NCBI RefSeq assembly: GCF_020541305.1
Contig: NZ_CP047396.1
Span: 434,001-498,000, forward strand
Direction of reading: 5' to 3'
DNA: 64,000 nt
From: Candidatus Vallotiella adelgis
Lineage (GTDB): Bacteria; Pseudomonadota; Gammaproteobacteria; Burkholderiales; Burkholderiaceae
A program made the position numbers and the translations under genes. This document shows positions 5,714-63,130 of the stretch, in pieces; position 1 is the stretch's first letter, and each line of letters begins with the position of its first letter. The notes below the pieces were generated by a model. That model had not been told where the DNA came from and did not search any database. It saw only the letters and a list, made by a program, of their open reading frames with translations.

Positions 5714-7393
5714 ATGTCAGACCCCGTCTCTACCGGCGCGCTGCGCCGTATGCTTGTTACATCTGCACTGCCGTACGCGAACGGCCCGATTCATATTGGC
5801 CATCTCGTTGAGTATATCCAGGCTGATATCTGGGTGCGCGCGATGCGAATGCATGGTCACGAGGCATATTACGTCGGTGCGGACGATACTCATGGCACAG
5901 CAATCATGCTTCGCGCACAGTCTGAGGGCATTACGCCACTGCAGTTAATCGAGCGTGTCTGGCGGGAGCACAAGCGCGATTTTGATCATTTTTTGATTTC
6001 GTTCGATAATTATTGCTCAACAGACTCAGACGAAAACCGAATTTTGTCTGAACGGATTTTTACCGCACTCCATGAGGCTGGGTTGATTGCGGAGCGAGAT
6101 ATTGAGCAGGCGTATGACCCAGCTAAGGAGATGTTTCTGCCAGACCGTTTTATCAAAGGCGAATGCCCGAAATGCGGCGAGAAAGATCAATATGGTGATA
6201 GTTGTGAGGTATGTGGGTCAACGTACCGGCCAACTGAGCTAGGAAAACCGTATTCAGTATTATCTGGCGCGACGCCGGTGAAAAAAACATCAACGCACTA
6301 TTTTTTTAGACTATCCGATCCACGCTGCGAGACTTTCCTACGAGACTGGGTCGGTCAACTTGCACAGGAAGAAGCTACTAAAAAAATGAGAGAGTGGATT
6401 GGTGAAGATGGAAATACAAAGCTCACTGACTGGGATATTTCGCGCGATGCACCTTACTTCGGCTTCGAAATCCCAGGCGTGCCAGGTAAGTACTTCTACG
6501 TTTGGCTCGATGCACCTATTGGCTACTATGCAAGCTTCAAAAAATTATGTGATCGGCTCAGTTTAGATTTTGAGGAATGGGTTCGTCCAGGAACGACCAC
6601 TGAGCAATACCACTTCATTGGAAAAGATATTCTGTATTTCCACACGCTATTCTGGCCTGCTACTCTCCAGTTCTCTGGATACCGTGCACCGACTAACGTA
6701 TTCGCGCATGGTTTTCTAACCGTGGACGGCACGAAAATGTCTAAATCCCGCGGAACTTTTATCAATGCAAATAGCTACATTACGAGCGGCTTAGATCCGC
6801 AATGGCTGCGCTACTACATTGCTGCAAAGCTTAACAGTACGATGGAAGACATCGACCTAAACCTTGAGGACTTCCGGGCACGCGTGAACAGTGATTTGGT
6901 TGGTAAGTATGTAAATATCGCAAGCCGCACAGCGGGTTTTTTGATCAAGTGGTTCGATGCACGCGTACACGACAGCGCGATGAACCATCGACTTCTAGTC
7001 CAGCTGCGAGCTGCAATCCCAATGATCCCAACGTACTACGAAAGCCGCGAATACAGTCGCGCACTACGCCAGATAATGGAGCTAGCAGACGCTGTCAACG
7101 TGTACGTGGATGCTGCGAAGCCTTGGGAAAAGGCTAAAAATCCCGCTAATGCGGTGGCTCTACATGAAACGTGCAGCGTCAGCCTTGAAGCATTCCGGTT
7201 ACTCACGCTAGCGCTCAAGCCCGTGCTGCCAAAGCTTGCTAAATCCGTTGAAACATTTCTCTCAATTGACCCGCTGAAATGGGCAGATGTCACGACACCT
7301 CTCTCCTCAGCGCGGTCGATCAAGCCATACCAGCATCTAATACAGCGTGTAGACCAAAAACAGATTGACGCGCTGCTCGCCGTTAATCGCTAG
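5714..7393 (+). CDS. metG: Methionyl-tRNA synthetase lacking the C-terminal tRNA-binding domain
   Basis: MetG charges tRNA-Met. I chose the ATG at 5714 (559 residues) because the 26 codons upstream do not resemble MetG. The class I signature HIGH lies at residues 27-30 and KMSKS at 341-345. Zinc-knuckle cysteines C151, C154, C164 and C167 lie in the connective insertion. The anticodon-binding helical domain follows and the protein stops after [10 protein letters not shown]. Burkholderia MetG, as I recall it, is about 720 residues and continues with a linker and an EMAP/Trbp111-type tRNA-binding domain that also mediates dimerisation. Nothing resembling that domain follows the stop. Many bacterial MetRS are naturally monomeric and lack it, so the shortened enzyme is probably active. 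Confidence 0.95.
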
Positions 7394-22580: not shown

Positions 22581-22898
22581 GCCCGGGTGGTGAAATTGGT
22601 AGACACAGGGGACTCAAATAAATTTTGAGCCCTTTGAGGGAAACCCTAAAGGTGAAGTCCGTCAAACTCGGTAAAGACCCTGGACAAGTCCGAGTTCATG
22701 CCGAGCCAAGCCTTAGAGCCAATAAGTTCTTTGGAAGGTGTAGAGAGCAGACGGCGGGCACCTAAAGCCTAAAAGTCAAGGTGAAGGCGTGCTCCAGACT
22801 ACAAACGTTCTCTTGCGAGAGAACGGCGGCGAAAGCCGAAGTGGTAAGAAAATCCCCCGCCGAAAGGCATGCCGGTTCAACTCCGGCCCCGGGCACCA
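22581..22898 (+). tRNA. tRNA-Leu(CAA) interrupted by a group I intron
   Basis: The exons are 22581-22615 and 22849-22898 (85 nt in total, CCA encoded). Acceptor arms GCCCGGG and CCCGGGC pair fully. The D-arm contains AATTGGTAGACAC. The anticodon stem GGGGA pairs with TCCCC and the joined loop reads CTCAAAA, giving anticodon CAA. A long variable arm (CGCCGAAAGGCAT) marks a type II leucine tRNA, and the T-arm is GCCGGTTCAACTCCGGC. The 233 bp insertion after the first anticodon base is at the same position as the intron of cyanobacterial tRNA-Leu(UAA), whose start and 3' exon (AAAATCC) it closely resembles. It is the only tRNA I find in the window. Confidence 0.95.
22616..22848 (+). other. Group I self-splicing intron in the tRNA-Leu anticodon loop
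   Basis: The boundaries come from restoring the tRNA fold; the last intron base is G22848, as required. P1 pairs CTC of the exon plus AAA of the intron with TTTGAG at 22624-22629. P2 is a CCTTT/AAAGG hairpin at 22631-22652. P3 pairs CCGTC (22659-22663) with GACGG (22750-22754), P4 pairs CTCGG (22667-22671) with CCGAG (22701-22705), P7 pairs GAGCA (22745-22749) with TGCTC (22790-22794), and P8 pairs CACCT (22759-22763) with AGGTG (22779-22783). P9 elements include a GTTCTCT hairpin and a GGC-GAAA-GCC stem. The core GGTGTAGAGA..AGACGG matches the Azoarcus tRNA-Ile intron as I remember it. No homing endonuclease is encoded. Confidence 0.93.
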
Positions 22899-61743: not shown

Positions 61744-63130
61744 GGAGAAAAACGAACTACTCATGCAAAACACGCTATTTTACCTAACCTTAACCGTGCT
61801 AGGTACACATAAAATTGTACGCTAACGTACAATATAGGCATTATGCGGGATAGCATGCTCTCGCTGTGATTCTAGTCACTTGCCCCCGTTTGCATAGTAC
61901 TAGTGTAGTCGCTAGCTATATCGCGATATCTACACAGTAAAACTCGCGCGATAATTTTGATTCTTGCTGTTTAGTCACTCTTATTCGCGACAGAATATAC
62001 AAAAATACAGCGATCACCGGCAATTTACGCGTCCTAAATAGCGATGCTACTAAAAACCAGATAGTCCAAATGATAGTTCGCAATATAAAGCTGAGAAAAA
62101 GCGTTTAATTTTATTTTTTAAAAATATTTATATAGTATTTTAAACTAATAAAGTCTTTTTATCATAAAGTAATATGATATATTACTCAAGTAAATAAGTT
62201 ACCGTGTAGATGAGATATTACTATTCGATTAAGTATTTATAAAAATATTTACTGAAATCGGCAAAATACTAAACTCGATACAATGATATTGCTAAATTTA
62301 TTTAGAAGTCGTATATTTTATATCATGTGATAATTTTTATCACAAAAAATAAAATTTTGTTACTTCATCATAAATTTTTTCGTTATATCTGTAATATTAA
62401 AAAGGTATAGTTTATTACTATAAACAATATAAAATATTTAGATAAAAATAATATAAATATGATGTATTATTTCCTATCGTAAAAAATTATTTACTGAGCA
62501 TTTATAATATAACAATCTAAATTGTATTTAGAGTACAAATTCTCATATAGAATTAATTCTATACAAAGCATTAATTCTATGTTATTTGTTATTTAAAAAC
62601 ATTTTTATTTATACCAAACAATAATATTGTTTTAATAAATCAGTTTTATAATCTTTTTTTTACTCGATTTATCTAATTTTTTTGCCGAGTATATATTATA
62701 TAATATATCAATTTATTTTTCATTTATTACACTTCTTAGAAGTGAGATTTTTTGAAAAATTTTTTTAATGTGCCACTTCGCCGCGCAAAAATAGTTCAGC
62801 GGCACTTTAAACCAACCTAAAAGCGCTGGGCGCGCATCGTCGGGAAGTATAACCCATTATATTGTAATACAGACTCTGCTGGCTGCCTATGACTCATACC
62901 ATGCTTAGTTATATAATTGACGTAGTTATAGAACTTTGCAGCAAATAGCTTTTCAGAATAAAAAAATTAGTAGTATAAGTGCTAATTATGCTAAAACTTA
63001 ATTCAAGTACTTATTCACAATAATTCTACGCTAGTGATCTTAGATCAGGTTAGTAACCCTAGATCGAAATTGGTAATACATATCGCGATAAATCTCATAT
63101 TGATAGTTTTTATCATCTCTACTTTACGCA
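61744..63130. other. AT-rich non-coding island between plsY and tsaE
   Basis: About 1.4 kb with no gene. From about 62100 to 62770 base composition falls to roughly 20 percent G+C in the lines I counted. At the right edge are a DnaA-box-like TTATTCACA (63011-63019) and three GATC sites at 63036, 63043 and 63062. No RNA gene is recognisable. Confidence 0.6.

Follow-up and report, generated by a model that had tools for sequence, protein, structure and literature searches.

The window, as we call the whole stretch of 64 kb that was analysed, carries on its plus strand a tRNA-Leu(CAA) gene interrupted by a group I intron (22581-22898). The 5′ exon (22581-22615), delimited by ARAGORN in intron mode and by comparison with an intronless gene, ends with base 22615, which is the first anticodon base (C34) and base -1 of the 5′ splice site. 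The intron (22616-22848; 233 nt), delimited by Rfam Intron_gpI, alignment, pairing, and a tree, lies between C34 and A35 and ends with omega-G (22848); it is too short to house an endonuclease gene. The 3′ exon (22849-22898) contributes anticodon residues A35A36, the long variable arm, the T arm, and the encoded CCA. The joined exons form an intact 85-nt tRNA that differs from the intronless Burkholderiaceae tRNA-Leu(CAA) (L024/L026) at 5 of 85 positions. The coordinates, the 233-bp insert, and the intact leucine tRNA left after its removal had all been given in a preliminary description of the locus, and ARAGORN in intron mode and the exon comparison reproduce them.

ARAGORN run without introns finds no tRNA in the whole window, and Rfam at gathering thresholds finds no match in it. 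With introns allowed, ARAGORN makes a single call in the 64-kb window, the tRNA-Leu(CAA) gene at 22581-22898 with its 233-nt intron, and makes no call in ten order-1 Markov controls. A permissive Rfam search aligns Intron_gpI (RF00028) end to end with 24.1 bits (E=6.4e-4), short of the gathering cut-off of 50 bits. In the Rfam check proposed in the preliminary description, the full model therefore matches, but under the cut-off, so that an outcome of no significant hit is narrowly avoided. The other introns that follow C34 (C34 introns) and were checked score below 36 bits or are missed by Rfam, and several relatives that follow U34 (U34 introns) are likewise sub-threshold. The sub-threshold score reflects a limitation of the Rfam model and does not define the RNA. 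Intron-split tRNA genes of this class escape the tools tried; standard ARAGORN and Rfam both missed the window gene.

Pairing was counted over 138 distinct tRNA-Leu introns (78 C34 and 60 U34 introns). The internal guide sequence (UUUUGAGCCC; 22623-22632) has UUGAG in all but one of them. Its GAG (22627-22629) pairs with CUC of the 5′ exon (22613-22615) to form P1, the C34-G pair included, and its U run is able to pair with AAAA of the 3′ exon (22849-22852) to form P10. P2 (22632-22651), closed by a GAAA loop, is 86% paired over the 138 introns, with 318 double-change cells, and carries one A·C mismatch in this genome. P3 (22657-22663 with 22753-22759) is 92% paired with 129 double-change cells. 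The pairing counts also place P4 (22667-22673 with 22699-22705), P5 (22676-22678 with 22694-22696, plus a distal stem-loop), and the P6 region (22705-22706 with 22738-22739, plus a distal stem). The P5 pair 22677-22695 is A-U here instead of G-C, a compensatory change. J4/5, the wobble receptor (22674-22698), has A22674 and A22675 facing C22697 and A22698. P7 (22743-22749 with 22790-22795), which contains the guanosine-binding pair G22745-C22794, is 99.6% paired with 118 double-change cells. P8 (22760-22782), P9 (22806-22825), and the GAAA-capped P9a (22827-22838) follow from the same counts. Every tested P3-P9a pair is standard in the window genome.

Overall, P2-P9 pair in 81-99.6% of cells, compared with 1-62% after a one-base shift of one strand, and double changes are present in P2, P3, P7, P9, and P9a. 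In particular, two adjacent P7 pairs (132-177 and 133-176 in window-intron numbering) change in concert, being G-C/C-G in 82-84 introns and C-G/U-A in 53-56. The guanosine-binding pair beside a bulged A is found as well, with pairs 130-179 and 128-180 (same numbering) being G-C in 138 of 138 introns. The core helices P3, P4, P6, P7, and P8 occur in group I order in both the full-model alignment and the 138-intron pairing, the guide pairs with the 5′ exon, and the intron ends with omega-G. In addition, the unspliced gene folds better than shuffled sequences (z=-3.6), and the general layout resembles that of the Azoarcus and Anabaena introns. Judged by this fold, the insert is a genuine group I intron of a known kind. 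The preliminary description had proposed these pairings and the covariation in P7; the former hold over the 138 introns, and the latter is seen in the joint swap of the two P7 pairs.

The insertion point equals that of the tRNA-Leu(UAA) introns, as had been claimed and as the alignment confirms, but base 34 at the 5′ splice site is C. As AAAA opens the 3′ exon directly behind the terminal G, the normal seven-base loop CUCAAAA is obtained only with a 5′ exon that ends with C34. With the insertion at C34^A35 and the guide G kept, the splice-site pair is thus a Watson-Crick C-G pair and not the usual U·G wobble. This C in place of U is the unusual part of the locus, and the preliminary description overlooked it. 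The C34 introns were collected with a pattern that requires GGACTC and TTRAG, which gives at least 78 distinct ones. In 78 of 78, the intron is preceded by C34 and its terminal G is followed by AAAA. The guide G, which faces U34 in tRNA-Leu(UAA) introns, is retained in all 78, so that C34-G replaces the U·G wobble, a highly conserved group I feature, throughout. The host anticodon is CAA, not UAA, in the window and in all C34 relatives.

U is almost universal at base -1 of the group I 5′ splice site, and two natural C·G exceptions to the splice-site U·G were reportedly described by Hur and Waring in 1995 (cited in PMC6468297). Given these reported exceptions and the core common with the U34 relatives, the C-G pair does not disqualify the intron from group I. 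The choice of the 5′ splice site depends critically on the U·G pair, which in Tetrahymena is recognised by the J4/5 residues A207 and A114 (PMC10020454). A guide A, which would give a C·A wobble, was permitted by the pattern (TTRAG), yet no intron with A occurs among the matches listed. The TTAAG candidate L175 has an integrase-like open frame downstream and no group I core, and the other candidates are intronless tRNAs. L175 itself (near 5993, matching strand) consists of the 5′ half of a tRNA-Leu(CAA) followed by the integrase-like frame and represents a genomic element that has entered the anticodon loop. In the viral contig L289, a candidate C34 intron was rejected, as neither a tRNA nor a core follows. 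No additional C34 origin with guide GAGTG turned up in 398 genomes of the phylum. L188 (near 6129, matching strand) holds a broken C34 intron gene that ends after P8.

The window genome (1.24 Mb) comprises two contigs, C1 (1,174,085 bp) and C2 (66,104 bp), and belongs to a Vallotia-type adelgid symbiont, consistent with the reduced betaproteobacterial symbiont that had been proposed. Four genomes of the genus, this one included, are 1.1-1.2 Mb in size and four are 3.3-3.8 Mb. An orthologous C34 intron gene is present in eight of eight, including all four small ones; Candidatus Vallotia (L143) and Mycetohabitans (L103) are named loci with the same gene. These orthologues, together with the P2-P9 pairing, settle by comparison that the intron is real. 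Synteny with other C34 carriers was considered and rejected, as lptF/lptG and a CorC-like gene are common neighbours within the genus only. Across families of Burkholderiales, a C34 intron was found in 4 of 399 sampled genomes, so the search for the same intron among relatives, which the preliminary description had recommended, bears out the patchy distribution it expected. A pattern scan with one genome per species lists, among its matches, carriers in Bordetella, Pusillimonas, Cupriavidus, Comamonas, Acidovorax, Polaromonas, Rhodanobacter, Lysobacteraceae, Steroidobacteraceae, and others. The preliminary description had stressed the persistence of the intron in a decaying symbiont. It is not peculiar to one: the larger Mycetohabitans genomes and many free-living beta- and gammaproteobacteria carry it, and it predates the reduction.

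A tree built from 102 introns unites 76 of the 78 C34 introns in a single clade (100/98), which is nested among U34 introns of the same P7 type. The nesting argues for shared descent of the C34 introns with tRNA-Leu(UAA) introns. The clade, of at least 76 introns, spans beta- and gammaproteobacteria; the two C34 introns outside it are L095, from an alphaproteobacterial MAG, and L144, from Bdellovibrionota. The C34/U34 label changes three times on the tree, and well-supported branches force at least two of these changes. The introns from the eight genomes of the genus group together (93/99), indicating that the C34 intron is older than the genome reduction of the symbionts. Beta- and gammaproteobacterial carriers are intermixed, which suggests horizontal spread, although the bootstrap values are not fully settled. 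The UAA intron that the window genome also carries was rejected as donor of the CAA intron, as it is placed in another clade.

J4/5 is AA/AA in 49 of 78 C34 introns versus 59 of 60 U34 introns, and a string-based check that is independent of alignment columns gives 46 of 78 versus 58 of 59. Sixty-seven sites are at least 95% conserved in U34 introns, and 62 of them reach the same level in C34 introns. Conservation is lower at the remaining five: both sites of the first P4 pair (52/92), the site at the P4/J4-5 boundary, and two sites in J4/5. J4/5 takes 15 of the 33 C34 changes at the 67 sites (permutation p=0.004), a value that comes largely from one site (11 of the 15 changes) and from a region picked for its known role but after inspection of the alignment. 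Despite its J4/5 variation, the C34 clade accounts for only 7.9 of 28.6 units of tree length. The variants include AA/GA, AA/CA, GA/CA, and GA/AA, and the window genome has an A-to-C change at 22697. AGA on the 5′ side of J4/5 occurs in 13 C34 introns, L144 included, and in no U34 intron. L144, which lies outside the main clade, has a changed J4/5 (AGA/AAT), and L095 keeps the usual J4/5 despite C34; the link is not strict.

The first P4 pair (22667/22705) is C-G here and in most C34 introns, and U·G in U34 introns. This change mirrors that of the splice-site pair. L144 retains U·G and L095 has G at this pair, so the P4 C-G may be a single lineage-specific change. The closing pair of P5 was considered as a C-G-specific compensation: the association was perfect with 24 U34 introns and gone with 60. 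It was rejected because cyanobacterial and viral-type U34 introns also have G·U or A-U there. Taken by itself, the J4/5 comparison suggests that the constraint on J4/5 changed once its U·G target was lost, by either co-evolution of receptor and splice site or relaxed constraint.

We put the probability at about 0.87 that the locus is a self-splicing group I intron in tRNA-Leu(CAA), descended from UAA introns, with a C-G splice site and a J4/5 that changed afterwards. In the first step, an external guanosine bound at the P7 pair G22745-C22794 would attack after C34. In the second step, the freed 3′-OH of C34 would attack after the terminal intron G (22848). C34 would thereby be joined to A35, giving the 85-nt tRNA that reads UUG. 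As to origin, tRNA-Leu(UAA) introns would have moved into the CAA gene with the guide G kept, which would create the C-G splice-site pair, and the J4/5 receptor would have been altered after the move. Comparison of sequences establishes the fold, the junctions as the only ones that would yield a normal tRNA, an origin within the UAA introns, inheritance through the genus, and an altered conservation of J4/5. From the same sequences we infer that the intron is spliced in the cell and is capable of self-splicing in vitro. The J4/5 change is likewise only presumed to be a response to the C-G pair. The fuller account, in which a widespread and previously undescribed C34 clade switched its target from UAA to CAA and from U·G to C-G and its J4/5 receptor evolved along, has in our estimate an even chance of being correct.

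The C-G pair may instead be merely tolerated. Splicing would then be slower or less precise, little of the tRNA would be needed, and J4/5 would drift, with no adaptive co-evolution. The diversity of the J4/5 variants, where one substitute motif might have been seen, resembles relaxation, the P5 pair is not C34-specific, and a tRNA-Leu(UAA) that could also read UUG is present. However, the positions equivalent to A207 and A114 are mostly A still (77 of 78 and 64 of 78, respectively), indicating that the receptor is not free to vary, and G at the A114-equivalent position arises again in the independent intron L144. We consider toleration a serious contender whose chances fall slightly short of even. 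If the receptor did evolve along with the splice site, the C34 introns would be a natural mutation series for the choice of the 5′ splice site by a group I ribozyme. The recognition of the splice-site U·G by its J4/5 receptor is a textbook example of tertiary contacts in RNA, known mainly from mutants of one or two ribozymes. A natural U-to-C change in at least two lineages, one of them widespread, with U34 introns as controls, makes co-evolution of receptor and splice site directly testable.

The other leucine tRNAs CAG, UAG, and GAG of the window genome are intronless and chromosomal. The tRNA-Leu(CAA) had been described as the only one in view, and it is the sole CAA gene in the whole genome. 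The only tRNA-Leu(UAA) found in the genome lies on plasmid C2 (13017-13369, minus strand; L079) and contains a 268-nt group I intron, which scores 56.9 bits with Rfam and falls in a clade other than that of the CAA intron. An intron-bearing UAA gene is present in eight of eight genus genomes and lies on contig C2 in the four small ones. None of the eight yielded an intronless CAA or UAA tRNA-Leu, and the intronless motif GGACTYAAAATCC is absent from all of them. UUA and UUG make up ~32% of leucine codons in the long ATG open frames of the window, some of which are possibly not genes. A tRNA-Leu(UAA) normally also reads UUG, and the CAA tRNA can be dispensable in other bacteria that have a UAA tRNA; the CAA tRNA therefore need not be essential here. 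Accordingly, the earlier statement that UUG decoding would suffer if splicing were lost goes too far. Splicing is more likely to be indispensable for the UAA tRNA than for the CAA tRNA.

C2 has a GC content of 41.8% and carries Rep3, ParB, an aromatic aminotransferase, and thiC; it is like the Vallotia plasmids in gene content and GC. The V. lariciata plasmid is 67 kbp long with 41.8% GC (PMC8857208), and the annotation of Vallotia from another adelgid has 41 tRNAs on the chromosome and 0 on the plasmid (PMC8692619). Retention of the Vallotia plasmid has been credited to argG and tyrB (PMC8692619, PMC8857208). The intron-split tRNA-Leu(UAA), perhaps indispensable, is a candidate for a simpler reason why the shrunken plasmid is retained.

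With UUG read by tRNA-Leu(UAA), the insertion could be dead and tRNA-Leu(CAA) a pseudogene of the symbiont. Genome reduction, the possible dispensability of a CAA tRNA beside a UAA tRNA, and two core changes unique to this genome (the A-to-C in J4/5 and the A·C in P2) would fit such decay. Nevertheless, the exons fold as a normal tRNA and have 63.5% GC amid flanks of 36-37% (the intron has 50%), all tested P3-P9 core helices are fully paired, including the compensatory A-U in P5, and the gene is retained in four of four small genomes of the genus. We therefore regard a pseudogene as improbable. Splicing might also be assisted by a protein or use another site, with the 5′ cut elsewhere than after C34. 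The near-universal U at that position speaks for this, as does the wobble being termed critical (PMC10020454). A cut after U33, however, would leave a six-base anticodon loop, the 3′ end (omega-G, then AAAA) is invariant in 78 of 78 introns, and the sequence just past C34 (e.g. AGACC) usually has no U for the guide G, so that such splicing is very improbable. Chance resemblance or an assembly artefact, for which the Rfam score below the cut-off might be cited, has a negligible probability given the same site in eight genomes of the genus and dozens of named genomes and the pairing over 138 introns.

Among known systems, the tRNA-Leu(UAA) introns of cyanobacteria, plastids, and proteobacteria are alike in 34/35 insertion, guide UUGAG, core fold, and P10 to AAAA, and the C34 clade nests inside the proteobacterial ones. 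They differ in the host anticodon UAA, the U·G splice pair, the near-invariant J4/5, and the U·G first P4 pair. The introns of Hur and Waring (1995), going by the title, have C·G in place of U·G at the 5′ splice site, as here. In the present case, by comparison, a clade of at least 76 introns at one tRNA position and two more introns outside it can be set against U34 relatives as a control. The Azoarcus tRNA-Ile(CAU) intron and the tRNA-Ile2 introns of Acidovorax and Burkholderia are also small group I introns in the anticodon loop of a proteobacterial tRNA, but they occupy another tRNA at another insertion position. They have U at the splice site. The tRNA-Ile2 introns of Acidovorax and Burkholderia are covered in the tRNAscan-SE 2.0 paper (PMC8450103). 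The literature searched contained no description of a bacterial group I intron in tRNA-Leu(CAA).

Several further loci were observed in passing. L004 (1361-1659; pCTX-M3, NC_004464.2, about 61823-62121) contains an apparently unannotated tRNA-Leu(UAA) gene whose group I intron of 213 nt scores 36.8 bits with Rfam. On resistance plasmids, aac(3)-IId is a few hundred bases away from this gene, whose junctions ARAGORN misplaces. DNA like L004 occurs in 1262 plasmid records, and 635 of 5426 complete E. coli genomes have near-identical copies, which bear no annotated feature among the matches listed. The IMG/VR contigs L222-L300 include many tRNA-Leu(UAA) genes with a group I intron (~50 ARAGORN calls), some of the contigs being possibly host DNA. 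An uncultured phage record (LR756501; 735 kb) matches 69% of the window gene. According to a 2014 review, phage tRNA introns were then unknown (PMC3984707). L006 (1001-1178) is a truncated UAA intron gene on plasmid pBB1 of Cupriavidus necator N-1. In L209, L210, and L214, from genomes of the same class, the tRNA-Leu(UAA) introns reach 688-698 nt, which leaves room for a small gene or insert.
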